Assembly: GCF_003885105.1 (NCBI RefSeq)
Contig: NZ_QWZQ01000014.1
Span: 1 to 64,000, forward strand
Origin: Lactiplantibacillus garii
GTDB taxonomy: Bacteria; Bacillota; Bacilli; Lactobacillales; Lactobacillaceae
Direction of reading: 5' to 3'
DNA: 64,000 nt
Part shown: positions 6,395 to 64,000 of the stretch, in pieces
Position numbering within the stretch: the stretch's first letter is position 1
Layout: each line of letters begins with the position of its first letter
Program-made: the position numbers and the translations under genes
Notes under the pieces: generated by a model
What the model saw: the letters and a program-made list of their open reading frames with translations, nothing else
What the model was told of the DNA's origin: nothing
Databases searched by the model: none

Positions 6395-6399
6395 ATAAG

Positions 6400-6638: not shown

Positions 6639-6742
6639 TAGCTTTTAGCGCGCCCTACTTTTCAGAAAATCAAGCCGTAATGGTTAGCGCAACGTTCCAA
6701 TTGCCAACACGCTACGGCCCTTAAAACTTGGAGGTTTTTTAT

Positions 6743-7027
6743 TTGATTACCCTATTACTAGTGGTCTACACCCTAATCGCTGCGTGGATCGGCTACTACC
6801 TATTCAGTCACCAATCCCGGCCATTTTTAACGTTTGATCCCACTAAAACTCCCACTGTTAAACACATTGCCCGCTATGGCGGCGGCCTCATGCTACTAGT
6901 CGCCGTTGGTAGTGCCGTTACCATTTTTATTCAGAGTACGGTTTGGATTGCCATCGTACTGGCCAGTGGTTGTTTGATCATGATGGCGATCGGTCTGCTT
7001 TTAGTTAGTTTTATGCAATTCCAGTAG
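6743..7027 (+). CDS. Small three-helix membrane protein, function unknown
   Basis: 94 residues from the TTG at 6743, with about three hydrophobic segments (near residues 2-22, 46-65 and 67-90). The TTG at 6728 is part of the GGAGG Shine-Dalgarno (6730-6734), which sits 8 nt before the TTG at 6743, so the shorter form is preferred. It lies 66 bp upstream of the universal stress protein gene. I do not recognise the family; similar small proteins are common in lactobacilli. Confidence 0.65.
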   Translation: MITLLLVVYTLIAAWIGYYLFSHQSRPFLTFDPTKTPTVKHIARYGGGLMLLVAVGSAVTIFIQSTVWIAIVLASGCLIMMAIGLLLVSFMQFQ

Positions 7028-7093
7028 AAAACGCTTTTTATTTGTTACGAAAACCTTTACAATATAGGTATAAAGTATTGAGGGGTGAGAATC

Positions 7094-7576: not shown

Positions 7577-7586
7577 TGATTGATGC

Positions 7587-7630
7587 AAATAAGCCACCCG
7601 TGATTTTAAAAAATCACGGGTGGCTTATTT
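7587..7630 (+). terminator. Terminator of the Usp gene
   Basis: A 21-bp inverted repeat (7587-7607/7610-7630) with a GC-rich middle (GCCACCCGTGA) and T-rich 3' end. Confidence 0.8.
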
Positions 7631-7697
7631 TGGTTACGGCACACGGCATAAAAGATTTCAACTAAATTTATCCCACCTAATTCAAGCTACGGACAAT

Positions 7698-7735
7698 ACT
7701 TACCTTTTAGTGGGTATCGTACTTTAAAGTGGGTA
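7698..7735. promoter_or_regulatory. Possible operator in front of the MFS gene
   Basis: AGTGGGTA occurs twice 19 bp apart (7709-7716 and 7728-7735). The first copy is part of the imperfect palindrome TACTTAC-N6-GTGGGTA; the second follows the palindrome ACTTTAAAGT (7721-7730). The sites abut the -35. Such ACTT...AAGT palindromes recall HxlR/MarR-type operators; the regulator is not in this window. Confidence 0.4.
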
Positions 7736-7736
7736 C

Positions 7737-7764
7737 TTGTTGATCAGTAACTTGCTAGTATAAT
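7737..7764 (+). promoter_or_regulatory. Promoter of the MFS gene
   Basis: TTGTTG (7737-7742), 16-bp spacer, TATAAT (7759-7764). Confidence 0.65.
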
Positions 7765-7809
7765 CATCAATTGTCATACAATTACAAAACAACTCAAGGA
7801 GGGTTCATG

Positions 7810-49967: not shown

Positions 49968-51857
49968 TTAGTCAATATCGATATTGCCAGTAAACTGACT
50001 GTTATATAGATCAGCGTAGAACCCGTTTTGAGCCATCAACTGGGCGTGGGTCCCGGTTTCAACGACGGAACCGTGATTCATGACGATAATGTTATCGGCA
50101 CCCTGAATCGTTGATAAACGGTGTGCAACGACGAAGCTGGTCCGATTTTTCAATAACCGTTCCATCGCGTGTTGAATGTGCACTTCGGTCCGGGTATCAA
50201 CTGAACTCGTGGCTTCATCTAAAATCAGAATTTCTGGATCAGCCACAAAGGCCCGGGCAATCGTTAAGAGTTGCCGTTGCCCCTGTGAAATGTTAGAAGC
50301 TTCTTCGTTTAAGATGGTATCGTATCCGTCCGGTAACTTACGAACAAAGCCGTCCACGTGGGCCGCCTTCGCCGCTGCTAAAATTTCTTCCTTAGTCGCG
50401 TCTTCACGACCGTATTTCAAGTTATCGTAAATCGTCCCGGTAAAGAGCCAGGTATCCTGCAACACCATCGCAAAGTGGGAGCGCAAATCTTCGCGCTTCA
50501 GGTCCCGAGTATCGGTACCGTTCAAGCGGATAGACCCACCCTTGATATCGTAAAAGCGTTCCAACAAGTTAATAATGGTCGTTTTACCGGCCCCGGTCGG
50601 CCCAACAATCGCGACCTGCTGACCACGCTTAACGTTCAAGTTGTAATCCTTCATCAACAGGGCGTCGTCGGTGTACCCGAATTGGACGTGTTCCAAGCTG
50701 ATCAAATTATCACTATCCGTCTCAGCCGGTAAGTTCGACTTGGTCTGCTTCATTTCTTCTTCGTCCAAAACTTCGAAGACCCGTTCAGCAGAAGCAACCG
50801 TTGATTGAATAGTGTTCAGCAAGTTAGCCATTTGTGAAATTGGTTGGGAGAACTGTTGCGTATACTGTAAGAACGCCTGAATGTTCCCGAGAGAAACGTG
50901 GCCGTTCGCCACGTCGATTCCCCCAATAATAGCTACGAACACGTAACCAATGTTGTTTAAAAACATCATTAACGGCATGATAATCCCGGAAATAAACTGG
51001 GCTTTCCACGCGGATTGATAATAATTGTTATTTTGTTCTTCAAAATCGTCAATGGCATCCTGTTCCTTATTGAAACTCTTGATAACCACGTGACCAGCAT
51101 AGTTTTCTTCAACCTGGTTATTCAATAACCCCAGGGACTTTTGCTGGGTTCCAAAGAACTTTTGCGACTTCGGTGCAATTACACCAACGACGACGACGCT
51201 AAGTGGGATCGTAACCAGGGCGATCAGCGTTAGTTTCCAACTGATCGTCAGCATCATCCAAATCGTTCCGACGAAAGTAACGATACTGGTCACGGCCTGC
51301 GTTAAGTTTTGCTGCAGCGTGTTAGCGATGTTATCCATATCGTTGACGGCCCGACTCATAATGTCCCCGTTAGAATGGGTATCGTAGTATGAGATCGGTA
51401 CTTTTTGCATCTTACCCTTAAACGAACGCCGTAACTTGTAAACCGTCCGTTGTGAGATTCGGGTCATAATGAACTGTTGAATGAAGTTAAACAGCGCGGA
51501 CGCCACGTACATTAACAGCACAATTAAAATAATTTGGCCAATTTTTTCAAAATTAATTGGGTAACCATTCTGACTAATCCCCGCTTTTTGTTGCGCCACA
51601 CCCTTCATAATACCTTTATAAATTTCGGTGGTGGCTTTCCCTAAGATCTTCGGCGTTTGAATTTGAAAAATGACCGAAACAATCGCAAAAATCATGACGA
51701 TGGCCAGACCAACCCAACGATCCGACATGTACCGCATTAAGCGGATGGCCGTTTTCCAAAAGCTTTTCGGCTTTTCGACGACGCCTTGTGAACCGGGTCC
51801 GTGCCGTGGGCCACTAGGACGGGGCGTATCAGCAGCATTTGATTTTTTCTCGCTCAT
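49968..51857 (-). CDS. ABC exporter half, canonical ATPase site (YfiC/LmrD-like)
   Basis: 629 residues: a Pro/Gly-rich N-terminal tail, six membrane helices, and an ATPase domain with Walker A GPTGAGKT, signature NISQGQRQ, and Walker B LILDEATSSVD carrying the catalytic Glu. It forms a heterodimer with the product of the next gene upstream, as in LmrCD or TM287/288-type multidrug or lipid exporters. Its ATG overlaps the partner stop codon by one base (TAATG), indicating coupled synthesis. Confidence 0.88.
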   Translation of the reverse strand: MSEKKSNAADTPRPSGPRHGPGSQGVVEKPKSFWKTAIRLMRYMSDRWVGLAIVMIFAIVSVIFQIQTPKILGKATTEIYKGIMKGVAQQKAGISQNGYPINFEKIGQIILIVLLMYVASALFNFIQQFIMTRISQRTVYKLRRSFKGKMQKVPISYYDTHSNGDIMSRAVNDMDNIANTLQQNLTQAVTSIVTFVGTIWMMLTISWKLTLIALVTIPLSVVVVGVIAPKSQKFFGTQQKSLGLLNNQVEENYAGHVVIKSFNKEQDAIDDFEEQNNNYYQSAWKAQFISGIIMPLMMFLNNIGYVFVAIIGGIDVANGHVSLGNIQAFLQYTQQFSQPISQMANLLNTIQSTVASAERVFEVLDEEEMKQTKSNLPAETDSDNLISLEHVQFGYTDDALLMKDYNLNVKRGQQVAIVGPTGAGKTTIINLLERFYDIKGGSIRLNGTDTRDLKREDLRSHFAMVLQDTWLFTGTIYDNLKYGREDATKEEILAAAKAAHVDGFVRKLPDGYDTILNEEASNISQGQRQLLTIARAFVADPEILILDEATSSVDTRTEVHIQHAMERLLKNRTSFVVAHRLSTIQGADNIIVMNHGSVVETGTHAQLMAQNGFYADLYNSQFTGNIDID

Positions 51858-53587
51858 TAAAGTTGATCCTCCTCTCGTAATTGTGATTTCATAATTTCTT
51901 GATAAACTTCGTTATTCGCTTTCAATTCAGCGTGGGTCCCCTTACCGACTAACTTGCCGTTATCCAAAACTAGGATCAAGTCGGCATCGGCCACCGTGGC
52001 AATCCGTTGGGCCACGATCACCACGACGCCTTGTTGGATCATTTTATCCTGACGAAGTTCCGCCCGGAGTTCGGCATCGGTCTTAAAGTCCAACGCGGAA
52101 AATGAATCGTCAAAAACGTAAGCGGACGCGTGCTTAACTAGGGCCCGGGCAATCGCTAACCGTTGCCGTTGACCACCGGAAAAGTTACCCCCACCTTGTT
52201 CAACGTGGGCGTCTAGGCCCCCCTCTTCCTTAACAAAATCGGTTGAGCGGGCAATTTCCAAAGCGTGCCAAATTTCATCATCGGTTGCCTTTTCGTTCCC
52301 AAACTGCATGTTTTCCCGAATCGTCCCGGTAAACAGCGTGGCCGTTTGTGGCACGAAGGACACGGCCCGGTGTAGGTCGGCTAACTTCAACTTGCGAACG
52401 TCAACACCGTCCAGCTTAACGGCACCCTTTTCGATGTCGTAAAACCGTGGAATCAGGTTGACCAAGGTCGTCTTACCAGAACCGGTCCCACCAATGATGG
52501 CGACCGTTTGACCAGAATGGGCCTGAAAGTCAATGTCGGTCAAAGCTAACTGCTCCGCGCTCTGGTACCGATAATCAACGTGATCAAACGTCAAGCTGTG
52601 TTCAGTCGTTACTGGCAACGTTTCCGAATTGTCCGGGTTCGTGATTTTGGTTTTAATATCCAAAACTTCTTGAATCCGGGAAGCGGAAGCCGCGGCCCGG
52701 GGAATGAACGCAAAAACCATTGCAAGCATCATGAAGCTCATCAATACTTGCATGGCGTACGTCATGAAGGCAATCATGTTCCCGACCTGCATCGTTTGAC
52801 TGCTGATCAGCTGCCCACCAAACCAAACGATGGCCACGTTGGTCCCACTCATAATTAAAGTCATGACCGGGTAAGCTAACGCGACGATCGTGTTAACCTT
52901 GATCGCGTTATTCGTGTAGTCTTGGTTGGCGTCTTCAAAACGGTCCTGTTCAAACTTATCCTGCCGAAAAGCACGAATGACCCGTACCCCCGTCAATCCC
53001 TCACGAAAAACCAAGTTAATGCGGTCAGTCTTCGTTTGCATCGCCCGGAATAGCGGAATCGCAAATCCCATGATTAAGCCGATGAAAATTAACAAGACCG
53101 GAATCGAAACGACGAAAATCCAGGTTAACTCGTGACTCTTGGTGTACGCCAGAAAACTAGCCCCAATCAACATAATTGGTGCCATGATCATCATTCGCAG
53201 AGCCATCATGGCCACGTTTTGGATCTGCACCACGTCGTTGGTCGTCCGGGTAATCAATGAAGACGTTTCAACTTCATCAAATTCATCGTTTGAAAAGTTG
53301 AGGACCTTCTTATAAATATCCGAACGTAAATTTTTCCCTAACTGTTGTGACGACCGCGCCGCCAAAAACACGTTCCCAAAGGCGGCCACGACGGATAACA
53401 GGGAGAAGCCGATCATTTCAAAACCGACTTTCCAAATATAACTAATGTCACCCTTGGCGACCCCGTTATTCACAATATTCGACGTCAAACTGGGCAAATT
53501 CAAATTTGCAATTACTTGAACGATCATGAACAAAATCGCACCAATAACCGCGCCGTATGAAATTCGACCCTTTGCTATTTTAAGCAT
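51857..53587 (-). CDS. ABC exporter half, degenerate ATPase site (YfiB/LmrC-like)
   Basis: 576 residues: six membrane helices then ATPase domain with Walker A GGTGSGKTTL and signature NFSGGQRQR. Walker B is followed by Asp instead of Glu (AYVFDDSFSALD), the mark of the degenerate site in heterodimeric exporters. GGGG Shine-Dalgarno precedes the ATG at 53587. First gene of the operon with a strong promoter at 53635-53663. The substrate is unknown. Confidence 0.88.
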   Translation of the reverse strand: MLKIAKGRISYGAVIGAILFMIVQVIANLNLPSLTSNIVNNGVAKGDISYIWKVGFEMIGFSLLSVVAAFGNVFLAARSSQQLGKNLRSDIYKKVLNFSNDEFDEVETSSLITRTTNDVVQIQNVAMMALRMMIMAPIMLIGASFLAYTKSHELTWIFVVSIPVLLIFIGLIMGFAIPLFRAMQTKTDRINLVFREGLTGVRVIRAFRQDKFEQDRFEDANQDYTNNAIKVNTIVALAYPVMTLIMSGTNVAIVWFGGQLISSQTMQVGNMIAFMTYAMQVLMSFMMLAMVFAFIPRAAASASRIQEVLDIKTKITNPDNSETLPVTTEHSLTFDHVDYRYQSAEQLALTDIDFQAHSGQTVAIIGGTGSGKTTLVNLIPRFYDIEKGAVKLDGVDVRKLKLADLHRAVSFVPQTATLFTGTIRENMQFGNEKATDDEIWHALEIARSTDFVKEEGGLDAHVEQGGGNFSGGQRQRLAIARALVKHASAYVFDDSFSALDFKTDAELRAELRQDKMIQQGVVVIVAQRIATVADADLILVLDNGKLVGKGTHAELKANNEVYQEIMKSQLREEDQL

Positions 53588-53606
53588 TTACACGCTCCCC
53601 TTCATT

Positions 53607-53652
53607 CATTATCAAAATAATAATGCAGTATCTTAATCTAACGAAAAATCGT
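53607..53652. promoter_or_regulatory. Two palindromes at the ABC exporter promoter
   Basis: CATTAT-N7-ATAATG (53607-53625) lies just after the predicted start point, and ACGA-AAAA-TCGT (53641-53652) fills the promoter spacer. Both could be repressor sites. Confidence 0.4.
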
Positions 53653-53663
53653 TTCTTTGTCAA
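53635..53663 (-). promoter_or_regulatory. Promoter of the ABC exporter operon
   Basis: On the minus strand TTGACA (53658-53663), 17 bp, TAGATT (53635-53640). Confidence 0.75.
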
Positions 53664-53787
53664 CTATCTTTACAAGTCTCACGGAAACTATTGTAACTCA
53701 CTCGTTCCACTTTGACACTCAAAAAGTTTTAAGATTTTATAACGTCCTTAATAGTTAGTTAACAATGTTACTGACTAAAATTCAAGC

Positions 53788-53833
53788 AAAGCCAAACGCG
53801 GTTGGGCCCAGGGCCACAACCGCGTTTGGCTTT
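53788..53833 (-). terminator. Terminator of the DUF1093 gene
   Basis: A 17-bp perfect stem (53788-53804/53817-53833) with AAAGCC/GGCTTT ends and a GC-rich loop. Confidence 0.75.
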
Positions 53834-53838
53834 AAGAT

Positions 53839-54231
53839 TTAACTGTTGCTAAGGTCTTGACGAACGTGACTTGGAACGGTGTGACCCGCAACCGCCTCCC
53901 AAGTGTTGACGTTTTGACCCTTCGTTTTAATTTTGAGGTAATGGGCCAATTTTAACCGGTGGTCGGCCGTAAACGTTAAAGTCCGCCGCGCCCCCCGCAT
54001 ATCCACGGTGTTCATCTTATAGGTAAAAACGTCTTCGCCCATCTGGCCCTTCGTATGGCTAACGGCTTGATTAGTCATCCCGTAGACAGTCGTTTCCTTC
54101 ACCAACGGATTGACGTTATCAATCGCCATGGCAAGTTCGTCTCCCCGATTCTTAGTGAAGTTTCCCGAGAATAACAACGCCGCCGCACCAATTAATACCA
54201 CCACTAAAAGTCCCGTTAATCCTTTTTTCAC
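53839..54231 (-). CDS. YxeA-like DUF1093 exported protein
   Basis: 130 residues with an N-terminal hydrophobic segment (about 5-22) acting as signal or anchor, then a small domain with YGMTNQAV, GEDVFTYKM and RTLTFTADHRLKLAHYLKIKTK, typical of DUF1093/YxeA. Function unknown; family members are small secreted or anchored proteins. It stands alone with its own terminator. Confidence 0.78.
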   Translation of the reverse strand: MKKGLTGLLVVVLIGAAALLFSGNFTKNRGDELAMAIDNVNPLVKETTVYGMTNQAVSHTKGQMGEDVFTYKMNTVDMRGARRTLTFTADHRLKLAHYLKIKTKGQNVNTWEAVAGHTVPSHVRQDLSNS

Positions 54232-54425
54232 GTTTAACGCCCCCTGTAAATTTTTATTACAAAATTTATCTTAGCTAAGCGTTAACCAACCGTCTAGACC
54301 ACTCAACGGATTCTTAAACTCCTTGGTAAATCCCTAAACAATCCTACCTTTTCTTAAACTTTTGATGAGCACGCTAAATTAAAAAAATGCTATTTTTTAT
54401 AAAAATTGCTGTTTATCGGCGCTAA

Positions 54426-54441
54426 ATCCATTAGTATGGAT
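54426..54441. promoter_or_regulatory. Perfect inverted repeat upstream of the deacetylase gene
   Basis: ATCCAT-TAGT-ATGGAT, 27 bp before the start codon. Could be an operator or leader hairpin. Confidence 0.35.
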
Positions 54442-54467
54442 ACAAGTGCAAAATAAGGGGGATTATG

Positions 54468-55316
54468 ATGCAACTTCGACAAACTAGCTTGCTAGGTACA
54501 ATCATACTAGCAGGGATTTTATTAGGGGGCTGTGGCGCTCATTCTAAGGCCGCTCATCGTTCAAACAGTTCAACTATCCAAGCCGCAGCTAAAAGCACCC
54601 AGGCAAGCGCTAAGAGCCAACAGCGGACTAACCAGTACGCTAACTGGCGGCGGGTAAAAAAAGTAAAACTACCTATATTAATGTATCACAGCATTTCTAC
54701 CGGTAATTCGTTGCGGGTCCCGGCCAAAGAATTTCGGGCACAAATGGCCTATTTAAAACAGCACCATTACGACACGTTAACCACTAATCAAGCGGTGTAC
54801 GCGCTCAAACACAACCGGGTGCCCCAAAAGAAAATCGTTTGGATCACCCTAGACGACAGCTACAAGGACAACATGACACGGGCCTGGCCAATTTTAAAGA
54901 ATAACGGTCAGCACGCGACCATTAACTTCATTACCGGTTTCGCAAATAAGCCAAATCACCTCAGTTTAACCGATGCTCAAAAAATGAAGGCCTCCGGTAA
55001 CGTCGACTTTCAGAGCCACACGGTTCGCCACTTGGACTTAAACGACTTAACTTACCAAGTTCAATTAACGGAATTGACCAGTTCTAAGAAGTGGCTTGAT
55101 AAAAACTTACACCAACGGACCCGGGTCATCTGTTACCCGGCCGGACGCGCGGATGGCGAAACCATCAAGGCCGATAAAGCGGCTGGTTACACCTGCGCCC
55201 TATCGACAGCGGCGGGCATCGCAACCAGTAGCCAAAATCCGTATAACTTAACTCGCCAGCGGGTCGTCCCCGGGATGACTACCAGCGCGTTCGCAGCACT
55301 ACTTCAAACTAATTAA
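54468..55316 (+). CDS. Polysaccharide deacetylase lipoprotein
   Basis: About 282 residues. Lipoprotein signal with LGGC (Cys22), Ser/Ala/Gln-rich spacer, then a NodB domain: ILMYHSI, metal and catalytic ITLDDSYKDN, FQSHTVRHLDL and CYPAGR. It should remove acetyl groups from peptidoglycan or another surface glycan. AAGGGGGA suggests the ATG at 54468 over the adjacent ATG at 54465. Followed by a bidirectional terminator. Confidence 0.87.
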   Translation: MQLRQTSLLGTIILAGILLGGCGAHSKAAHRSNSSTIQAAAKSTQASAKSQQRTNQYANWRRVKKVKLPILMYHSISTGNSLRVPAKEFRAQMAYLKQHHYDTLTTNQAVYALKHNRVPQKKIVWITLDDSYKDNMTRAWPILKNNGQHATINFITGFANKPNHLSLTDAQKMKASGNVDFQSHTVRHLDLNDLTYQVQLTELTSSKKWLDKNLHQRTRVICYPAGRADGETIKADKAAGYTCALSTAAGIATSSQNPYNLTRQRVVPGMTTSAFAALLQTN

Positions 55317-55321
55317 TCACA

Positions 55322-55374
55322 AAAGTACCACGCATTAGTCCATCCGACTCGTTCGGGCTAACGCGTGGTACTTT
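55322..55374. terminator. Bidirectional terminator
   Basis: AAAGTACCACGC (55322-55333) pairs with GCGTGGTACTTT (55363-55374), with inner ATTAG/CTAA pairing, between convergent genes. Confidence 0.85.
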
Positions 55375-55378
55375 ATTA

Positions 55379-55627
55379 TTATTGGTGATAATAACCTAGA
55401 ATCCCAACAATCAAAACAATGCTCAGTACGAACAGGCCAATTCCGGCCGCCAACCGTTTATTAGCGGACGTGCCCCGTCGATTTTGACCAATCAAAGTTA
55501 CGACCAAGTAAAGACTAATGATACTCATCATTACGACGTACAACCACCGCAAAGTATAGCTCAATACGGCTAAAACCAGGTAACCCAAAAGAAACCAATT
55601 ACGTTTTAAAAATGTGATTACACGCAA
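55379..55627 (-). CDS. Small three-helix membrane protein
   Basis: 82 residues from the TTG at 55627, placed 7 nt after AAGGGGG. About three hydrophobic segments (near 11-26, 30-46, 62-79) with a basic loop NRRGTSANKRLAA. The GTG at 55648 lies before the Shine-Dalgarno and is rejected. Family unknown. Confidence 0.6.
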   Translation of the reverse strand: MRVITFLKRNWFLLGYLVLAVLSYTLRWLYVVMMSIISLYLVVTLIGQNRRGTSANKRLAAGIGLFVLSIVLIVGILGYYHQ

Positions 55628-55701
55628 CCCGTTACCCCCTTCGTTCACTAAAAATAGCCACCCGTACGACTAACGACGGATGACTTTTTTAGAAAACATG
55701 C

Positions 55702-56826
55702 CTAGAACTTGTTAGTTGTTTTCAAAATTTCCGAACCCCGATTAACTAATAAGTAACCAGCGCCCTTTTTATCAAATTGTAAGCCTTCAAATTCACGTTT
55801 ACCGGATAATTTAACCGCCTTAACGTCCTTAGCTTTCAATTTACCTAACTTGCTAACGGGGACTGAAGAAATACTGGAGTTAGATACAAAGTATAGGCGA
55901 TTATTTTTAGCGTTATACGCAATTGATTGTGATTTCCATCCCGGATTATGCCGCAAGCCCTGCATGATCAAATGGAACTTCACCGATTTTTTATTAATTT
56001 TACCCTTATAAATTTTGAGGGTATTCTTAGGCGCCCAACCGCCGTTGGAATAGGTGTAGAAGTAGGCGTTCCCCTTTTTATCAAAGGTCAAGTTTTCCCC
56101 CATTGCCACGGTCGACTTCAACGTGAAATTGATCCGTTTGTTGGGCTTCAGCGTCTTTGTGCTGACCCGTTGTACGTTTGCGTGCACGGCCGCAGCTCCA
56201 ACAAACCAGAGTTCCCCCGTCTTCGGGTTTTGCGCCAACGACTGCCCGTGACCCGCGTTAAAGGTTGGACCAACCTTAACGTACTTCAAAATTTGGCGGT
56301 CAGTGGCAGTTAACTGGTTCACACTCTTGTCGTAAGTCGCGCGCCGCAGGGCCGTCATGTTGGTCGTTGAAATGTTAAACTTGCTTCGCAGTTTACCCAG
56401 ATTATACTTTACGATGCGGCCAGTTTGCGTCCCCTTGTTAAGCATGACTAGGGTGTAGAGCGTTTTACCACTTTTGGACAATACTTCACTTTGCGGATTG
56501 CCCCAGTCACCGGAAGTCGCGTACGTGACGGGAAGGTAGACGTTAGTCTTAAACTTCAGCGTCTTAACGGTCCCGGCCGTCCGTTTAATCGTTCCCGGCT
56601 TAGTCTGGTAGAGGCCTCCCCGGTTATAGTTCGGCGCTGCCTGGTATGCATACGCCTTTTGATAATAATTTTTATTCTTGACCGTCTTATACTTTTTAAC
56701 GTTATAGTTTGCTAAGGCGTTGCCCTTTTGATTGTAAGTCGCCGCAGAAGCTGCGGTGACAACGCCCCCTAGTCCCAATACGGTCGTCAACGCGACGGCA
56801 CTGAGTTGTCGTTGCCATTTTTTCAT
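55702..56826 (-). CDS. Secreted protein with propeller-like repeats
   Basis: 374 residues. Signal peptide with basic start, hydrophobic core and likely cleavage after ASA near residue 29. The mature part is Lys/Tyr/Asn-rich, then shows recurring units resembling beta-propeller blades: GQSLAQNPKTGELWFVG, ENLTFDKKGNAYFYT, SQSIAYNAKNNRLYFVS, EGLQFDKKGAGYLLV. No anchor motif, so it is probably released or bound by charge. TTGGAGG precedes the ATG at 56826. Function unknown. Confidence 0.75.
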   Translation of the reverse strand: MKKWQRQLSAVALTTVLGLGGVVTAASAATYNQKGNALANYNVKKYKTVKNKNYYQKAYAYQAAPNYNRGGLYQTKPGTIKRTAGTVKTLKFKTNVYLPVTYATSGDWGNPQSEVLSKSGKTLYTLVMLNKGTQTGRIVKYNLGKLRSKFNISTTNMTALRRATYDKSVNQLTATDRQILKYVKVGPTFNAGHGQSLAQNPKTGELWFVGAAAVHANVQRVSTKTLKPNKRINFTLKSTVAMGENLTFDKKGNAYFYTYSNGGWAPKNTLKIYKGKINKKSVKFHLIMQGLRHNPGWKSQSIAYNAKNNRLYFVSNSSISSVPVSKLGKLKAKDVKAVKLSGKREFEGLQFDKKGAGYLLVNRGSEILKTTNKF

Positions 56827-57000
56827 GATACAGTCCTCCAAATAGTATTAAATTATTCATCTATAAATATAGCACTATTTCTAATCAATAAGTGGTGTTA
56901 ACCATGTAATGATTATTTATTAATGACCAGCGTTAAGAACCAACGTAACACTCAGCGCATTAATCACCGTCATCCTTTAAACCTTCAACTAAAATTTCAA

Positions 57001-57042
57001 TAAAAAAAGAGCTAAAACGTTGATAAATCAACGTTTTAGCTC
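57001..57042 (-). terminator. Terminator downstream of tRNA-Glu
   Basis: A 16-bp perfect stem (57009-57024/57027-57042), loop AA, and seven A residues (57002-57008) as minus-strand U-tract. Confidence 0.88.
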
Positions 57043-57071
57043 CGCATCGTTTCCCAGAAAAACTGGGGCTA

Positions 57072-57144
57072 TCACCCGCATGGGGATCGAACCCATAATT
57101 CCGCCTTGAGAGGGCGACGTCTTAACCAATTTGACCAGCGGGCA
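57072..57144 (-). tRNA. tRNA-Glu (anticodon CTC)
   Basis: 73 nt, no encoded CCA. D-arm GTC/GAC, anticodon arm TCGCC-CTCTCAA-GGCGG with anticodon CTC, variable loop of four, T-arm ATGGG-TTCGATC-CCCAT, discriminator A. The body matches Firmicutes tRNA-Glu. The acceptor begins with U1-G72 and G2-U71 wobble pairs rather than G-C pairs, which is unusual. Confidence 0.88.
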
Positions 57145-57188
57145 CAAATTCAATTACCATCTTACCGAAACCTAGGTAACTTGTCAAT

Positions 57189-57398
57189 CTAATCTTGGTG
57201 CCGTAAACGTAAAATTGTCACAATGACTAACCCAATGAATAATAATAAGCAATAACCCACACTACACCAAAACACAAAGGTCAGCAACGTTGGTAGTAAG
57301 AAAGTCCGCATTACGGCCAGACCAACCGCGGTAACTGCCCAAACAATCAATTGTTGGCGCAGGTGATTAAACAGTCGGGTCAACTCGCTAACTGACAC
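57189..57398 (-). CDS. Small membrane protein
   Basis: 69 residues from the GTG at 57398, 8 nt after AAGGAGG. Two hydrophobic segments (about 17-37 and 39-62) and a basic end (LRLRHQD). The 23-codon longer frame precedes the Shine-Dalgarno and is excluded. It lies 44 bp upstream of tRNA-Glu on the same strand and may be co-transcribed. Family unknown. Confidence 0.6.
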   Translation of the reverse strand: MSVSELTRLFNHLRQQLIVWAVTAVGLAVMRTFLLPTLLTFVFWCSVGYCLLLFIGLVIVTILRLRHQD

Positions 57399-57541
57399 GC
57401 CGACCACCTCCTTAACCTTAGTTTGCCGAAACTTCCGGTAGAATTCAACCCACCAGAAAAAATTCACTTTTCATGCATAAAAAAACTACCAAGAAGTCTT
57501 GACAGTATTCCCTCAAAAAGTTACTATTAAATAGTTGTTAT

Positions 57542-57614
57542 TGGGTATTCGCCAAATTGGTAAGGCAGCGGACTCTGAATCCGTAATTTACTGGTTCGAG
57601 CCCAGTATACCCAA
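57542..57614 (+). tRNA. tRNA-Gln (anticodon CTG)
   Basis: 73 nt. Acceptor TGGGTAT/ATACCCA, D-arm GCC/GGC, anticodon arm GCGGA-CTCTGAA-TCCGT with anticodon CTG, T-arm ACTGG-TTCGAGC-CCAGT, discriminator A, no encoded CCA. Reads CAG only. Confidence 0.92.
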
Positions 57615-57632
57615 TGAGTATCATTCCGATGA

Positions 57633-57669
57633 ACGTCAAGTTTGGTTTTTAACCAACTTGGCGTTTTTT
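57633..57669 (+). terminator. Terminator of tRNA-Gln
   Basis: ACGTCAAGTTTGGTT (57633-57647) pairs with AACCAACTTGGCGT (57651-57664), small mismatches, then six T residues. Confidence 0.8.
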
Positions 57670-57739
57670 GATGGCCACAACGTTTTTTCAATTAATTAAT
57701 TATTCACTGACAATCCCACGTGGAACCAATCGTGCTAGT

Positions 57740-57830
57740 ATTAATGACGATATAAATATTATTTGTATCGTCATTAATTAACTTATATTATGGCAGACTA
57801 GAACTGGGACCCATCCCAGTTCTTTTTTTG
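57740..57830 (+). ncRNA. Candidate small RNA ending at an orphan terminator
   Basis: A 13-bp inverted repeat (57740-57752/57766-57778) is followed by a textbook terminator AGAACTGGGA-CCCA-TCCCAGTTCT (57800-57823) plus seven T. No ORF and no other gene lies between this and the tRNA-Gln terminator. TGCTAGTAT (57733-57741) could be an extended -10. The transcript is inferred, not shown. Confidence 0.4.
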
Positions 57831-58132
57831 TACGTTCGCCTCCCGTTTCAATCTACGTGGTAAGTTCACATTTTAATTGAACAGGTCGAAATAAATGGCC
57901 TTTATTGGTGTTCATTGGAGGGGTTATTTACCACTAATTAACGGTCACAGCCTATAATACGATTGAGCTTCGGCGACGTATTCAACCTAAAAATTCACCG
58001 AATTTGTGCAAATCAGTTTACCACTTGCACGGAGGGTTTATAATGGAAGTGTAGCGGAACACTCCGTTAAGTCAATTGTTCAGTGTAAAATTAGCTTAGT
58101 ATTGAACGTCGTTACGAAGGAGATAATGTTTT
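57831..58132 (+). promoter_or_regulatory. Long leader with tandem promoters for the small gene pair
   Basis: Two TATAAT boxes occur at 57953-57958 and 58040-58045. Each has TTTACCACT upstream (57927 and 58018); only the second has good spacing (16 bp). After the second, GGAAGTGT and ACACTCC can form a hairpin at about 58046-58066. AAGGAG (58118-58123) serves the TTG at 58133. No other gene is seen in this stretch. Confidence 0.5.
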
Positions 58133-58360
58133 TTGGTATATAAAGATGTTTTTGGGATTGATCACGACGATTGCCACATCGTCCAAACGCGTCACGAATT
58201 CAACCGTATTTTCATCATTGAAAACGCCGTTGGTTCGCGCTTTACTTGCATCAAAAAGGACGCACCACTTGAAAAGAAAATGTCCGGTCATTGGAAGTAC
58301 GCCAAGGCCAGTGATGCACCTAAGAATTACGCGGTACCGTATAAGGCCCAAAAGGACTAA
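58133..58360 (+). CDS. Hypothetical small basic protein
   Basis: 75 residues from a TTG 9 nt after AAGGAG. Soluble; begins MVYKDVFGIDHDDCHIVQ and has a Lys/Ala-rich tail. Two Cys (positions 14 and 39). No family recognised. An ATG at 58126 in another frame stops after five codons. It is 24 bp before the next gene and probably co-transcribed with it. Confidence 0.6.
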   Translation: MVYKDVFGIDHDDCHIVQTRHEFNRIFIIENAVGSRFTCIKKDAPLEKKMSGHWKYAKASDAPKNYAVPYKAQKD

Positions 58361-58384
58361 TTAACTGGCGAAAAGAGGATTCAG

Positions 58385-58657
58385 ATGCGACTATACAAAC
58401 CGTTAACCAAACCCGATGGACGGGTTCACAGCACCGGCGAGCGTCACACCAATCCCTACTACGGTAAACGTGGTGCCGACTGGGTCAAAGACACCAACGC
58501 GTCCCTGTATAACGCGCAGCACGAACACTCGCAAGCGCGTTTACACTTGGAGCACCGCGTCAGTCAAATCACCCGTAACGTTATTTTCACGGTGCTGGCC
58601 ATCCTCGGTATGATCGTTGGTGGCTTCATCATTTATTCAATCGCACTCAGTCTCTAG
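58385..58657 (+). CDS. Hypothetical C-tail-anchored small membrane protein
   Basis: 90 residues: a charged, His/Asn/Tyr-rich N-terminal 63 residues and one C-terminal membrane helix (about 66-88). AAGAGGA precedes the ATG. No family recognised. It is second gene of a two-gene unit ending at the terminator 58666-58702. Confidence 0.65.
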   Translation: MRLYKPLTKPDGRVHSTGERHTNPYYGKRGADWVKDTNASLYNAQHEHSQARLHLEHRVSQITRNVIFTVLAILGMIVGGFIIYSIALSL

Positions 58658-58665
58658 GACCACAA

Positions 58666-58702
58666 AAAAATCCTCACACATCCCAAATGTGTGAGGATTT
58701 TT
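58666..58702. terminator. Bidirectional terminator
   Basis: A 16-bp perfect stem (58666-58681 against 58687-58702) with A- and T-runs on its ends, between convergent genes. Confidence 0.9.
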
Positions 58703-58703
58703 A

Positions 58704-59177
58704 TTAACCCTTAATTTCTTTGGTATCAACGAGTACCTTGCTGACCATCCGTAATTCATCCGTTAATTCGGACGTCCGAATCCGGCCAAACTCGTCTAAG
58801 AACTTGCCAAGGCGTTCTTCGTTTACCTTTTCAATTAACCTTGCTACTGACTCACCCTTCGGAGTTAGGGTCAAGTACCGGTAACGTCGATCGTACGGAT
58901 CGATATTCAACACAATCAAGTCATTGTTAATTAAGTAGGTCAGTTTTCTTGAAATGGCGGACGAAGAAACGTGCCGATCAGCGGCTAGCTCCTTCACCGT
59001 AATTCGATGTTCGTTACTATGATCCAAGTAATAGAGAATCAGGAATTGTTCAAACGAAATGTCGGCGTCGGCCACCATCGTTTGAATAATTTCCCTTAAG
59101 TGGCTTTCCAGCCACGACATTCCGACTAGAACCTTTTCAAACAGTTCCGCATCATCATACTTTGCCTTTTTTTCCAT
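58704..59177 (-). CDS. MarR family transcriptional regulator
   Basis: 157 residues with a MarR winged helix: ISFEQFLILYYLDHS, VKELAADRHVSSSAISRKLTYLINNDLIV (recognition helix) and the wing DPYDRRYRYLTLTPKG. The ATG at 59177 is chosen for GAAGA spacing, but the in-frame ATG at 59207 is possible. It lies downstream of the coiled-coil gene on the same strand and may control that operon or an efflux gene. Confidence 0.87.
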   Translation of the reverse strand: MEKKAKYDDAELFEKVLVGMSWLESHLREIIQTMVADADISFEQFLILYYLDHSNEHRITVKELAADRHVSSSAISRKLTYLINNDLIVLNIDPYDRRYRYLTLTPKGESVARLIEKVNEERLGKFLDEFGRIRTSELTDELRMVSKVLVDTKEIKG

Positions 59178-59249
59178 GGTATCAGTCTTCAATTCTTCCA
59201 ACCCCATTTGAGCGTCGTGTTCAGGCGGAGATTATTCACGACTCCGCGA

Positions 59250-61223
59250 CTAAGCACGGTCACTAACTGTTGGCATGATCGTAATTTCAAGGTCACGCGT
59301 CATCTTCTTCTCAATAGCATCTTGAACGTCATGGTCCGTCACAACTAAGCTTGACAACTTACTCTTCCCGTCAATGATGTCCTTAACGTGTTGGTTATCT
59401 AAATCGTTAGCCGACACGATTGGTAAAACGTGGAAGTGTTCGTTGGTTGCTTTTAAGCATTGGTCAAACAGCGGCGTGTTCACGCCCATTACCAAGACAC
59501 TGTCTTGTTTTTGCAAAACGGATGATAACCACCAAGTTAATAATTGCGCTTCGGAATGGAAAACGTTCGTAATGGCTTCATCTTTATTGACTAACTGAAT
59601 TGATAATTCGTGGTTGCTTCCGTACTGTTTGATCATTGCGATGGAACGGTCTGGCCGGTAGAAGTTCTCCAAGGTCACTTGTGAATTATTAGTCCGGTCA
59701 AGGTACTGGGTAACGGACAGAAAACCAGCCGCGTCGTACACGTCACGCCGCGTTGCAATCGAGCCGTTAAAGTACGTGATGTACCAAATAGCCCCACTCT
59801 TGCGGTACTTCAAATCCATAATCAGGTTACCGCCATCGTCGGCGATTGACGTGATCTGCTGATCAGAGTTGCGCTTATACTGCCATGCCGGGTTATCTGG
59901 TAATTCGGGCTTAGACTTCGCAACTTCACCGGGAACCTTCGCTTGAAGCGCATAGTACATATTAAATAGGCCGGTGTTCTTTTCAACTAAGCCGTGGTTC
60001 TGATAGCTCTTCCAGATATCCGGTAAACTATCGTTATAGTTGATCGTCACAACGTTAGCGTCACCCTTAACTTCGTTCTTCAAGAGACCCATGATCATGG
60101 ACATTGAAGTCTTTTCATCTTCTGATAAGGATTGAATTAGATCGTTACTGAAGAGGAAGTATTTTGCTGATTGGTCAAACTCAACTGGTGAGACCAAGTG
60201 GGTCGTGCCGTAATCCGATTTTAACTTCGCGTCAATGCTTTCAATCTTTTGTTGTAAGCCCTTAACAGAAGCTTCATTTTGATCATAATCGTGTTGCAAC
60301 CGGTTGATCTTCTGATTGATCAAGTTCAACTGACGTGACTGTTCATCCTGCGCATTCTTAGTCTTCCGGTCATAAGCAACCAGGGCATCTTGAGCGGTAT
60401 GTAAAGACTTTTCCGCGGTTGTAATGGCGTGTTCCTTGCTTGAACGATCACGGGTTTCGGACTGCTCACGTTTTTGAAGTTTCACCAGTTCACTGTTGAT
60501 TGCATCACTCTTTGAATACAGGTCTTGGGCTTGTTTTTCTTGGTCCTTCATCAAGACAAATAACTTCTTCAAGTCTTGCTCGCCTTGAATGGCCTTCCGC
60601 ATATTAGCTTCGTTTTGCCGTAAATCGGCTAATGAACGTTCGGACTGACTGATCTTTTGTTGTAACGAATTTAAAGTCTGGTCACTCTTGGTCAATGAAC
60701 GCTTGGCGTCATCGTACTGCTTCTGAGCAGCGTTGATCTTCGCGACCATGTCCTTACGCTCGTCACCGTTATCCATCACCACTTTATCTTGCTTTTGCAA
60801 GGTAACCTTAGCATCGGCTAACTGTTGACCTAAGTTCTTTTGTTCCCCAACCAACGTTTCGTAGCGTTGCTTTTCGTGCTTACGATCCTGAACCAGTTGA
60901 ACTTTAAGTTCCCCTCGTAAAACTTGGTACTGTTTGTTCAAATCGGACATTTCCCGTTCGATCATTGAACTAGTCTTCGCGGACTTTTGTCCGGCACGCC
61001 GTTGGTTAACCCGGTTTTGCCCTTTGATTGGTGTGACATTGGAAGCAGCCGCACTACTCCCTGCTGGCGAAGCACCCGCGGCGTTGCGGTCGTTAGCCGC
61101 GTTGCCAGGTGTAGCTTTTGGTTTGGGCTTCTGAGCAGCGACAGTTGAGGTCGCCGTTGCGCGCTCAGAATGACTCGCAAAATCCTCATTCTTATCTTTG
61201 CGCTTTAAACTGAACATCTTCAT
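59250..61223 (-). CDS. Large coiled-coil cytoplasmic protein with a glycosyltransferase-like C-terminal region
   Basis: 657 residues, no signal or membrane segment. Residues 1-87 are a disordered basic/Ala/Pro-rich tail; 88-335 form a long coiled coil rich in Gln/Lys/Glu. 345-435 is a folded linker. 440-657 shows YFNGSIATRRDVYDAAGFLS and NFYRPDRSIAMIKQYG, reminiscent of the N-terminal half of Gtf/Asp1 proteins of accessory Sec glycosylation systems. No donor-binding half is present, so it may be a non-catalytic partner. TGGAGGAG precedes the ATG at 61223. It follows the LPXTG adhesin gene on the same strand. Confidence 0.7.
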   Translation of the reverse strand: MKMFSLKRKDKNEDFASHSERATATSTVAAQKPKPKATPGNAANDRNAAGASPAGSSAAASNVTPIKGQNRVNQRRAGQKSAKTSSMIEREMSDLNKQYQVLRGELKVQLVQDRKHEKQRYETLVGEQKNLGQQLADAKVTLQKQDKVVMDNGDERKDMVAKINAAQKQYDDAKRSLTKSDQTLNSLQQKISQSERSLADLRQNEANMRKAIQGEQDLKKLFVLMKDQEKQAQDLYSKSDAINSELVKLQKREQSETRDRSSKEHAITTAEKSLHTAQDALVAYDRKTKNAQDEQSRQLNLINQKINRLQHDYDQNEASVKGLQQKIESIDAKLKSDYGTTHLVSPVEFDQSAKYFLFSNDLIQSLSEDEKTSMSMIMGLLKNEVKGDANVVTINYNDSLPDIWKSYQNHGLVEKNTGLFNMYYALQAKVPGEVAKSKPELPDNPAWQYKRNSDQQITSIADDGGNLIMDLKYRKSGAIWYITYFNGSIATRRDVYDAAGFLSVTQYLDRTNNSQVTLENFYRPDRSIAMIKQYGSNHELSIQLVNKDEAITNVFHSEAQLLTWWLSSVLQKQDSVLVMGVNTPLFDQCLKATNEHFHVLPIVSANDLDNQHVKDIIDGKSKLSSLVVTDHDVQDAIEKKMTRDLEITIMPTVSDRA

Positions 61224-61264
61224 AATGCAACTCCTCCATAAACTTGATTGTTTGCTCAAAGAGT

Positions 61265-61290
61265 AGAAAGGTCGCGTGAACGACCTTTCT
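61265..61290 (-). terminator. Hairpin between the adhesin and coiled-coil genes
   Basis: A perfect 10-bp stem AGAAAGGTCG/CGACCTTTCT with a 6-nt loop. The minus-strand sequence after it (ACTCTTTG) is a poor U-tract, so it may only partly terminate or protect the upstream mRNA. Confidence 0.5.
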
Positions 61291-61325
61291 ATCCGTTCAG
61301 CAAATAATCAAGCTTCTATTAATTA

Positions 61326-64000
61326 TTATGCTTCATGCTTACGACGTGAGACACCGAAGTACAATGCTGAACCCATTAACATGGTTCCAAGACCCAAGAC
61401 AGCTAATGCCGTCCCGTTCTCGTCTTCGTCAGTTTGTGGCAAAGCCTTTGCATCGGAAGTTGTGGTCTTCGTCTTAGTCGTTTCAACCGGCTTCAAGGCA
61501 GCGGCAGCTGGGATTACCCCGGCAGTTCCGTTCGTCTGGTCACCATCGTAAACGGTAACGGTCTTGATTTCAGTAGCTGGGGCCGTCGTTGGTTGTGCAA
61601 CGGTGGTTGTTTGACCCTCGTCGCCTTCAGCAGGCGCAGTAGTCGCTGCTGTTGTTGGTGCCGTTGTAGGAGCCGTTGTTGGTGCAGTCGTTGGCGCCGT
61701 TGTCGGTGCAACTGTAGGAGCCGTTGTTGGTGCGGTCGTTGGTGCTACGGTTGGCGCCGTTGTCGGTGCAGTTGTAGGAGCCGTCGTTGGTGCGGTCGTC
61801 GGTTGTGCAACCTTTGCGTAAGTCAACGTTACGGTTGAGTCGGCATTGCCAATAGTTCCCTTAGCATTGTCGGACTTGAGCGTGTAACCCTCAATATCCT
61901 TTGTCGCGTCATAAGCCGTCCCGGTTTCACCGGTAAACGTCTTGTCAGCCGCAATGGAATTGCCAGCTTCGTCAACGTACTTCGCCGTTACCGTGTATTG
62001 GGCCGCTGGGTTCTTTGCGTAAACGATCGTTACGGTTGAATCTGCGTCACCGATCTTACCAGTTACGTCGCCAGACTTGTAAGTGTAGCCATCAATGGCG
62101 TTCGTGGCATCGTAAGCCGTCCCGGTTTCACCGGTAAACGTCTTGTCAGCCGCAATGGAATTGCCAGCTTCGTCAACGTACTTCGCCGTTACCGTATATT
62201 GTGCGGCTGGGTTCTTTGCGTAAACGATCGTTACAATTGAATCTGCGTCGCCAATCTTGCCAGTTACGTCGCCGGACTTGTAAGTGTAGCCGTCAATGGC
62301 GTTTGTGGCATCGTAAGCCGTCCCGGTTTCACCGGTAAACGTCTTGTCAGCCGCAATGGTGTTGCCAGCTTCGTCAACGTACTTCGCCGTTACCGTGTAT
62401 TGGGCCGCTGGGTTCTTTGCGTAAACGATCGTTACGGTTGAATCTGCGTCGCCAATCTTACCAGTTACGTCGCCAGACTTGTAAGTGTAGCCGTCAATGG
62501 CGTTCGTTGCGTCGTAAGCCGTCCCGGTTTCACCGGTAAACGTCTTGTCAGCCGCAATGGTGTTGCCAGCTTCGTCAACGTACTTCGCCGTTACCGTGTA
62601 TTGTGCGGCTGGGTTCTTCGTGTAAGTTAACGTTACGGTCGAATCAGCATCACCGATTTGACCGGCAACCGCACCATCAGCTTTACTGAAGGTGTAACCA
62701 TCAATGGCGTTCGTTGCGTCATAGGCCGTCCCGGTTTCGCCAGTAAACGTCTTGTCAGCCGCAATGGAATTGCCGTCTTCATCAACGTACTTCGCCGTTA
62801 CCGTGTATTGAGCTGCTGGATTCTTCGTGTAGATGAAGTTAACCACGTTAATCCCATTAGCTAACGTAGCAGCGTTAACGTCACCCGTTTGCAATTCTGC
62901 TTTGGCGTCAGCATTACCAATCGTATAGCCAGCATAGGTATAGCCTTCAACTTCAGGATGGGCAACGGTGTAAGTCCCACCAGCTTGTGTGAAGGTACCG
63001 TCAGCCCCCTGCATGTAAGTGTTGTCTTCAGCAACAGTGTTACCATCAGTGTCTTGATACTTAACTGTTACCGCCGTATTTTCAACATAGAATAATTTAA
63101 TTGAAGCACCATCAGCTGCAAGCTCACCGGACAGCTCAGCACTACTATTGTAGTAAGTATAGCCATCTAATACTGCCGGAGTAATTGTATAAGTACCACC
63201 GACGTCTCCGGCCTTTGTAACACCCGCACCACTAATTGCCTGAACATCAGGTGCTGTCTGGCCATCGAATTTTGAAACAATATAATAGGTGACATCTACG
63301 TTGGCTTGTTGAACTTCAGTTGACGTATTCTTTGTCTCGTAGTTCCAACCCGCTGTTTCTGTTGACGTATCACCGTTTGCATTTGGTACTTCGGCAAATT
63401 GTAAACTGCCAGAAGGCGCATCAGTGAGCGCGTCATATTCAAAGTTAAAGGTGATTGATTTGGCAGTAGCACCGATCTTGTCATAGTTGATACCACTAAA
63501 GGCCGTTTGGTCCGCTTCACTCAGAGTGTTCGCTTTTCCACCATCAATTTGGTAAGAAAGTAATTTCCACGTTCCACGCGCATCGTTTGAGTTAACTGGT
63601 TTAACGGTAAATTGACCGTTACCATTATTCCAATCTACTTTAGGGTTCTTAGTCAACGTAATGTCAACGTCATACGTCTTACCCGCTTCAGGGTTGCTAA
63701 TCTGCGTGTTATTAACGGTTTGACCAGTTTGACCAGTTTGGTTAGTTTTATTAACCGTACCAGTATTCTTCACAGTGGTCGTACCGTCACTAGCAGCAAC
63801 CGACGTTACGTCAACTTGTGCATCTTCAGAAACTGAAACGTTTGCTTGTGATTCCGGTGTCGTAACTATAGGAGTTGTTTGGCTCACCTTAGTAGTAGTT
63901 TCTGGTGCAATTGAAGCCGATTCAGCTACTGGAGCTGAGTAGGCTGCTGGAGTTGCAGCACTTACCCCTTCGTTACTAGTAGTATCTTGTAAACCAGCGG
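61326..64000 (-). CDS. LPXTG-anchored surface protein with MucBP repeats (5' end outside window)
   Basis: 890 residues are visible; the frame stays open to the window edge, so the start is outside. In order: a Thr/Ala-rich N-terminal stretch, a non-repetitive adhesin-like domain, two divergent MucBP-like units, and five MucBP repeats of about 67 residues (AAQYTVTAKYVDE...DSTVTIVYAK). Then come a (P-T-T-A) linker and the sorting signal LPQTD, hydrophobic segment and RRKHEA tail. Sortase should anchor it to the wall; MucBP repeats suggest mucus binding. The internal GTG at 63887 is not a real start. Confidence 0.9.
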   Translation of the reverse strand, partial: AGLQDTTSNEGVSAATPAAYSAPVAESASIAPETTTKVSQTTPIVTTPESQANVSVSEDAQVDVTSVAASDGTTTVKNTGTVNKTNQTGQTGQTVNNTQISNPEAGKTYDVDITLTKNPKVDWNNGNGQFTVKPVNSNDARGTWKLLSYQIDGGKANTLSEADQTAFSGINYDKIGATAKSITFNFEYDALTDAPSGSLQFAEVPNANGDTSTETAGWNYETKNTSTEVQQANVDVTYYIVSKFDGQTAPDVQAISGAGVTKAGDVGGTYTITPAVLDGYTYYNSSAELSGELAADGASIKLFYVENTAVTVKYQDTDGNTVAEDNTYMQGADGTFTQAGGTYTVAHPEVEGYTYAGYTIGNADAKAELQTGDVNAATLANGINVVNFIYTKNPAAQYTVTAKYVDEDGNSIAADKTFTGETGTAYDATNAIDGYTFSKADGAVAGQIGDADSTVTLTYTKNPAAQYTVTAKYVDEAGNTIAADKTFTGETGTAYDATNAIDGYTYKSGDVTGKIGDADSTVTIVYAKNPAAQYTVTAKYVDEAGNTIAADKTFTGETGTAYDATNAIDGYTYKSGDVTGKIGDADSIVTIVYAKNPAAQYTVTAKYVDEAGNSIAADKTFTGETGTAYDATNAIDGYTYKSGDVTGKIGDADSTVTIVYAKNPAAQYTVTAKYVDEAGNSIAADKTFTGETGTAYDATKDIEGYTLKSDNAKGTIGNADSTVTLTYAKVAQPTTAPTTAPTTAPTTAPTVAPTTAPTTAPTVAPTTAPTTAPTTAPTTAPTTAATTAPAEGDEGQTTTVAQPTTAPATEIKTVTVYDGDQTNGTAGVIPAAAALKPVETTKTKTTTSDAKALPQTDEDENGTALAVLGLGTMLMGSALYFGVSRRKHEA
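61636..61806. repeat. Pro-Thr-Thr-Ala linker repeat
   Basis: Short 12-bp units (GGAGCCGTTGTT-like) encode a run of P-T-T-A/P-T-V-A repeats, the wall-spanning, probably O-glycosylatable stalk of the adhesin. Confidence 0.8.
61810..62820. repeat. Five tandem MucBP repeat units
   Basis: Unit boundaries at about 61811, 62011, 62212, 62413 and 62614, period 201 bp (207 for the last). The middle three are nearly identical at the DNA level; the outer two are more divergent. Confidence 0.9.

Follow-up and report, generated by a model that had tools for sequence, protein, structure and literature searches.

The locus studied here raises the question of what is done by a protein that joins a long coiled coil to part of a glycosyltransferase (Gtf) and is encoded directly after an LPXTG adhesin. 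We refer to this protein as P0001 and to its family as half-Gtfs; the window is the whole 64,000-nt stretch of Lactiplantibacillus garii DNA that was analysed (Table 1). The preliminary description of the window had proposed a scaffold or partner in adhesin glycosylation. This guess at the function is still the best one, and our results sharpen it to what would be a GtfB-like partner, lacking the donor half, of a dedicated SdgA-like Gtf. Our confidence in this partner model is moderate, since we infer every functional step of it.

Table 1. Features of the adhesin and half-Gtf locus, in positions of the window
Feature	Position	Strand	Basis or remark
Half-Gtf gene P0001, 657 aa	59250..61223	minus	ORF and profile homology; ATG at 61223, stop ends at 59250
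Coiled-coil segment, residues 83-340 of P0001	60204..60977	minus	heptad score, no proline
C-terminal half of P0001, residues 345-657: N-terminal GT-B part with extended beta-sheet (DUF1975/EBD) insert	59253..60191	minus	profile comparisons
RRDVYDAAGFLS motif, P0001 residues 492-503, within the EBD	59715..59750	minus	
Trp-Trp, W564 W565 of P0001	59529..59534	minus	alignment
KxYKxGKxW/MucBP/LPXTG adhesin with Thr-rich stalk	61326..63998	minus	start at contig position 64346, beyond the window
TTAP-rich adhesin stalk, about residues 845-907 of 1006	61626..61814	minus	
Stem-loop, 10-bp stem, between adhesin stop and half-Gtf start	61265..61290	minus	by eye
MarR-family regulator, third gene in the conserved order adhesin, half-Gtf, MarR	58704..59207	minus	

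The reading frame of P0001 is real, with GGAGGAG 7 nt 5' of the ATG. Residues 1-82 are basic and of low complexity and start with MKMFSLKRKDK; a similar hydrophobic-F-basic motif occurs within the first 60 residues of 25 of the 42 family ORFs. The segment that follows had a heptad score of 0.453, compared with 0.267±0.032 for shuffled sequences (5.8 sd higher), and contains no proline. This bears out the long coiled coil, joined to a C-terminal region with the RRDVYDAAGFLS motif, of the preliminary description. Membership in the SMC/Rad50 proteins was rejected: the match reached 31.5 bits (cut-off: 567.35) and was confined to the coiled-coil region, and such weak matches are typical of coiled coils. 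No relatives of P0001 were found in a plasmid collection at E<=1e-3.

The C-terminal half was compared with known glycosyltransferases by profile. In hhalign, a profile of the family C-termini (n=41) and one of nine full Gtfs matched across 294 columns at a probability of 99.0 (E 7.8e-18). In a PDB search with the same 41-member profile the matches were SdgB (E 2.8e-11; 7ec entries, which we take to be SdgB, in agreement with the NCBIfam and literature results), Gap1 (6oyc; 3.4e-6), TarM (1.5e-5) and Asp1 (5vae; 0.0024). The half-Gtf profile matched GtfB (hhalign 91.4, E 9e-7) and GtfA (91.3, E 9.5e-7) of accessory Sec (aSec) systems less well, and judged by these comparisons the family is nearer to SdgA-like Gtfs than to either of them. 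The suggested likeness to the Gtf and Asp1 proteins of accessory Sec systems therefore holds for a Gtf-type half, but the nearest relatives are SdgA-like. As a single query, P0001 reached SdgB only with E 0.18 and had no Pfam match at E<=1; at E<=0.1, GtfA_EBD (PF22145) was found in 13 of the 42 family ORFs, P0001 itself not being among them. An AlphaFold model of the C-terminal half, from an alignment of four close relatives, had a pLDDT of 47, and in a Foldseek PDB search with it GtfA, GtfA/B, Gap1 and Asp1 filled ranks 1-10. In view of the poor model, we do not lean much on these ranks. By its profile matches, P0001 belongs to the GtfA/SdgA/TarM-type fold family, of which it has the N-terminal GT-B part with the DUF1975/EBD insert.

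The homology spans residues 1-311 of the 525 of the full Gtfs and ends at the C-terminus of P0001 itself, before the donor domain; the sugar-donor half is missing, as had been claimed. In the alignment to full Gtfs, P0001 has no C-terminal donor (UDP-sugar) domain with E-x7-E, the glutamates of which (416 and 424) are invariant in nine of nine full Gtfs and catalytic in these enzymes. Residues kept in half-Gtfs and full Gtfs alike include N421, Q427, P442, G500 and F555 (P0001 numbering), and conservation of the Gtf-invariant S14, E17, R23, D209, H247 and T283 is lost in half-Gtfs. W564-W565 is invariant in all 41 half-Gtfs, with Phe at each place in seven of nine full Gtfs. Given that donor domain and E-x7-E are both absent, P0001 is predicted to be non-catalytic. 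In SdgB, the DUF1975 insert sits inside the acceptor-binding domain, dimerises the enzyme and docks the acceptor repeat, according to the available part of its description (PMC8561734). Since the matched region includes this insert, P0001 would retain the acceptor and docking half of a Gtf.

The adhesin gene lies 5' of the half-Gtf gene on the same strand, 102 bp apart, and the MarR gene follows 42 bp 3' of the half-Gtf. The LPXTG/MucBP adhesin with a Thr-rich stalk is thus found directly before P0001, as first described. Its anchor is LPQTD, and seven MucBP stretches were counted in the part within the window and six on scanning the full protein. We propose that the TTAP-rich stalk would serve as acceptor. 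The stem-loop between the two genes was not flagged by a terminator scan; it is possibly an attenuator, with half-Gtf expression perhaps below that of the adhesin. Upstream of the adhesin (L002:5900-7172), no inverted repeats comparable with the switch reported for msa were detected at the settings used. The same scan upstream of the adhesins of relatives gave one palindrome in L005 and six inverted-repeat pairs in L038 (G258), two of which, within positions 3849-4532, have imperfect 18-nt arms and spacings of 147 and 155 nt. The window also contains a polysaccharide deacetylase gene (54465-55316), and similar genes lie near the locus of several relatives.

Our survey covered 21 genomes, every one retrieved for the genus. 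A P0001 ortholog was present in 12 of them, in 11 at 74-100% identity and in G038 at 42% over the C-terminal part. An ortholog of the MarR gene (83-100%) occurred in the same 12 genomes and in none of the nine others at E<=1e-20. A MucBP/LPXTG adhesin was encoded directly upstream of the half-Gtf in 12/12; the contig of G273 holds merely the C-terminal end of it, and the KxYKxGKxW signal was seen in the other 11 adhesins of this ortholog clade. When the N-terminal part of the adhesin was searched in 15 genomes, extended matches were obtained in seven of the eight that carry P0001 (not in G273), and the rest gave matches in the repeat region or none. The S+T content of the adhesins peaks at 0.37 to 0.70 per 60 residues. 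Their stalks are rich in Thr, in many cases as TTAP, and a second Ser/Thr-rich stretch follows the signal peptide in the plantarum group, G287 and G303. In the seven of 12 genomes in which the contig is long enough, an ABC-transporter gene lies upstream of the adhesin, followed by a full Gtf about 7 kb from the half-Gtf and mostly then by a MacB-like ABC transporter.

This full Gtf is specific to the locus: it was detected in exactly the 12 genomes with a P0001 ortholog, and the nine others lack it. In a search of 15 genomes its identity was 60-100% in eight, the next best match in any genome being 37%; in the remaining six genomes it scored 794-822 bits in four and at most 576 in the other two. 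Its best NCBIfam matches were SdgA and SdgB (258 and 250 bits), far under the curated cut-off of 800. The preliminary description had noted no full Gtf nearby. We likewise saw none among the window's ORFs at 50000-64000, but the specific Gtf does accompany the gene in the window's own genome (G000), on another contig (G000:C103:88041-89600), 2 kb from the contig end with an ABC transporter alone after it; all full-length Gtf matches of this genome lie on contigs other than that of P0001. An adhesin, a Gtf and a MarR gene, one of each, thus accompany the half-Gtf, although linkage and shared ancestry inflate such co-occurrence within the genus. The adhesin upstream in 12/12 and the specific Gtf in the same 12 make the suggested link to adhesin glycosylation likely.

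Most other Gtfs in the genus genomes form tandem pairs. Every genome of the genus that carries a half-Gtf of any kind also had an unpaired full Gtf (15/15), and no genome lacking half-Gtfs did (0/6; full-length matches counted in 15 genomes from one search and in six from another with different queries; partial ones, namely the G258 fragment beside 1266287 and the G303 C27 fragments, left out). The numbers of unpaired Gtfs and half-Gtfs were equal in 17 of 21 genomes; G243, G258 and G304 have extra Gtfs and G301 has one too few. The association had a permutation value of 1e-5, which overstates independence as the genomes are related. An extra unpaired Gtf with no half-Gtf nearby lies about 4 kb from an S/T-rich protein (S+T 0.38-0.41) in L139 (G304; 5908-7425) and L140 (G243; 7159-8667).

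Is the locus part of an accessory Sec system? The contig of P0001 continues beyond the window, with the start of the adhesin, and ends at 65172; SecA2 and GtfB were searched genome-wide and neither was found. TIGR03714 detected one SecA in the window's genome, at 901.9 bits (SecA2 cut-off: 930), and no second one, and no GtfB matched there at E<=1e-20. In all 15 genomes of the genus that were tested, TIGR03714 gave one SecA, in no case above the SecA2 cut-off, and judged by SecA in these genomes P0001 lacks the SecA2-locus setting of GtfB. Among 33 genomes tested, only G290, G185 and G021 have a SecA above this cut-off. P0001 itself gave no match to the GtfB model (TIGR02919) at E<=1. These results agree with the earlier suggestion of an arrangement separate from accessory Sec. 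GtfB was found above cut-off in 33 of 301 genomes of the bacterial family, two of which (G035, G069) also have a half-Gtf. We do not claim a mutual exclusion of the two: two shared genomes compare with about 8-9 expected, and the Fisher value was 0.009 by genome but 0.23 by genus.

We give a probability of about one half to the reading that P0001, without catalysing transfer itself, resembles GtfB in role: as partner or scaffold it would bring the adhesin to its docking place on the dedicated Gtf in the cytosol, independently of accessory Sec. P0001 would be a pseudo-glycosyltransferase that kept the SdgA-like acceptor half with its oligomerising and docking EBD, lost the donor half and gained a coiled coil. 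It would act in the cytosol with the unpaired full Gtf that is encoded upstream of the adhesin in relatives. Its EBD might pair with that of the Gtf and hold the adhesin encoded next to it by the Ser/Thr-rich stretches, with the coiled coil perhaps multimerising the complex. The adhesin would be glycosylated first and then exported via the ordinary Sec route. If true, this suggests a way in which lactobacilli that have neither SecA2 nor GtfB recognise S/T-rich KxYKxGKxW adhesins and glycosylate them. P0001 would also be a naturally split GT with the acceptor and docking half alone, useful for asking what that half contributes.

Asp1 and Gap1 have a GT-like fold with a related insert, as P0001 does, and are non-catalytic. 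One alternative is an export chaperone like Asp1, whose dead GT fold would bind the S/T-rich adhesin, keep it unfolded and pass it to SecA with glycosylation unaffected. Both proteins are among the better kin of the family in the PDB search, they hold Foldseek ranks 3-10 (with the poor model), and with one SecA found in its genome the adhesin must exit without SecA2. However, Asp1 is a full-length protein with both Rossmann halves and works with Asp2, Asp3 and SecA2, and none of the 15 genus genomes has a SecA above the SecA2 cut-off. The Asp1 models (TIGR03713/PF16993) did not match P0001 and reached merely one (NCBIfam) and two (Pfam) of 42 family members at E<=0.1. Moreover, a chaperone of this kind leaves the accompanying specific Gtf unexplained, and we consider it unlikely.

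The partner model was also compared with more distant half-Gtfs. A branch with 20-22% identity to P0001 is found in G149, G172, G193, G211 and, in two copies, G301; these half-Gtfs are encoded divergently from the gene of a large KxYKxGKxW S/T-rich protein. One contig of G301 has the genes of a half-Gtf, of an adhesin of 2573 aa and of an unpaired Gtf in direct succession (ORFs of at least 100 aa), and the second copy has an adhesin and no Gtf in the stretch read. In the other four genomes the half-Gtf and the unpaired Gtf are on separate contigs; the Gtf closely follows the LPXTG end of a contig-cut repeat-rich protein, and these genes would make up the same trio of half-Gtf, adhesin and Gtf. 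In another genus (g25), positions 3080-19998 of L050 (G118:C28) encode a Gtf, a half-Gtf, a 3225-aa KxYKxGKxW/LPXTG adhesin, a second half-Gtf and the end of an LPXTG protein.

In a profile search, 71 of 301 sampled genomes of the bacterial family had a half-Gtf at 100 bits or more. A 395-genome sample of the order, the family make-up of which was not broken down, gave 12 positives, all from the window's family; one of them (G045) is a weak match in a full-length frame. A tree was built from 41 half-Gtfs, leaving out L004, L037, L038 and L040 (same loci or close relatives of kept rows) and L064 (partial alignment). Neighbours were labelled by hand: L065 and L074, with a surface protein three genes and 2.6-2.8 kb away, counted as adhesin-linked, and the borderline L072 (S/T-rich protein two genes off) and L066 (KxYKxGKxW-like protein about 3 kb off, missed by the pattern) as other. 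Sixteen of the 41 rows were adhesin-linked and 25, including the two borderline ones, were labelled as having no surface-protein neighbour. Adhesin linkage required four changes, be they gains or losses, of which at least three were forced by starred branches, compared with 12.8 after shuffling, a weak test because near-copies cluster; long branches were flagged. The window copy, its orthologs and L050 formed one set (90/82, unstarred).

Many half-Gtfs without a surface-protein neighbour lie near ackA or a gene of the AI-2E-transporter family (identified by Pfam at one locus and by clustering elsewhere), or near genes that presumably encode a phosphoglycerate mutase or a serine dehydratase. 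In L048, L062, L067, L070, L071 and L054, the AI-2E-transporter-family gene (Pfam in L062; clustering or sequence start elsewhere) is followed by a shorter half-Gtf of 447-539 aa, and the gene after that we take to be that of a phosphoglycerate mutase. Separately, a divergent Gtf-like gene in L142 (G248:C1; 3181-8653) sits beside a longer half-Gtf and a short half-Gtf-like gene of 337 aa; L066 (G290) resembles it. At least six wider-family genomes (G003, G008, G012, G043, G047, G105) gave no KxYKxGKxW match. The expected conservation of the gene with such an adhesin was thus seen in the ortholog clade (12/12), but not in distant members, so that adhesin specificity does not extend to the entire half-Gtf family.

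Outside the genus, the pairing of half-Gtfs with unpaired Gtfs is loose. At E<=1e-80, a cut-off that divergent Gtfs could escape, G003, G128, G260, G134 and G069 have a half-Gtf and no full Gtf, and G123 and G290 have a half-Gtf with paired Gtfs only. Half-Gtfs outnumber unpaired Gtfs in G050, G021, G118 and G092; a lone Gtf without half-Gtf occurs in G009, G233 and G285; and G008, G155, G248 and G185 have one of each. On account of these non-adhesin contexts and the loose pairing, the family seems to have an older or broader role, and partnership with adhesins to be one use made of it.

A second alternative builds on this breadth: half-Gtfs might be general envelope or cytoskeletal scaffolds with no tie to adhesins. 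The GT half would then serve for protein-protein contacts, and the copies beside adhesins would be duplicates recruited there or bystanders, the adhesin locus being gained and lost as a block. The many branches near ackA or near AI-2E-transporter-family and phosphoglycerate-mutase-like genes fit this alternative, as do the genomes with a half-Gtf and no full Gtf, and the coiled coil and the start-proximal hydrophobic-basic motif suggest assembly or membrane contact. Yet adhesin linkage recurs in well-separated branches of the tree (one gain with losses would also be possible), and within the genus half-Gtfs follow unpaired Gtfs. On balance we regard this scaffold role as improbable. A role of P0001 as partner of a wall teichoic acid Gtf (TarM/TagE-like), with the adhesin a mere neighbour, is less probable still: it could draw on the match of the family profile to TarM and on the low scores of the Gtf against the SdgA and SdgB models, in a comparison without TarM or TagE profiles, but SdgA and SdgB are still the best NCBIfam matches of that Gtf and the trios seen include S/T-rich surface proteins.

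We favour the partner model because of the homology to the N-terminal half of Gtfs, the exact co-occurrence in 12 genomes, and the recurrence of the trio in the distant branch and L050. It is weakened by the 25 of 41 tree rows without surface-protein neighbour, by the loose pairing outside the genus and by Msa of Lactiplantibacillus plantarum WCFS1, which apparently has no half-Gtf beside it. As a tentative and rather doubtful extension, Lactobacillaceae might possess a distinct, SecA2-independent mode of adhesin glycosylation. The subunit with the role of GtfB would be a half-enzyme lacking the donor part, and its coiled coil would polymerise it into a multivalent platform from which one dedicated Gtf is supplied with long Ser/Thr-rich stalks; elsewhere, the same family would scaffold other glycosylation or envelope processes.

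In a full-text search of open-licence PMC papers we found no published description of a coiled-coil half-Gtf. The nearest known proteins by profile, the adhesin O-GlcNAc transferases SdgA and SdgB of staphylococci, share the N-terminal half with the DUF1975 insert and are described, in the part of the source available, as modifying the repeat stalk of an adhesin (PMC8561734). Both are complete enzymes that have a donor domain but lack a coiled coil, whereas one partner of the proposed pair has no donor half. GtfA and GtfB, a catalytic Gtf and a GT-like partner for an S/T-rich adhesin, resemble that pair; GtfB is described, in the available part of the report, as a chaperone that interacts with the acceptor (PMC6973325). 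In contrast to P0001, GtfB has about 440 aa, matches its 438-position model end to end in most matches and belongs to SecA2/SecY2 loci, and its profile likeness to the P0001 family is weaker.

In the same genus, general O-glycosylation in L. plantarum WCFS1 depends on two DUF1975 proteins, Gtf1 and Gtf2, which are required together, and deletion of four other putative GTs left lectin recognition unchanged, as far as the accessible part of the report goes (PMC5796085). Each of these two has a GT domain, whereas the P0001 system would combine one full Gtf and one half. The msa-marR operon of this strain resembles our locus in that a MucBP adhesin is followed by a MarR gene, which we suppose to be the equivalent of that in the window. 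The available text gives the two genes as 11 bp apart and co-expressed and Msa as working there (PMC8493755); from this gap, a half-Gtf is apparently missing between them. A lectin domain is reported for Msa in the part of the source at hand (PMC5112522), in contrast to the 10 adhesins that we scanned (G172 and G273 outside the scan), in which none was found. For the SpcB cluster of L. rhamnosus, the accessible part of the description reports two GtfA-family genes, mentions no half-Gtf and has no annotated alternative Sec; like the P0001 system, it brings together a KxYKxGKxW adhesin, GtfA-family genes and a single SecA (PMC3584209).
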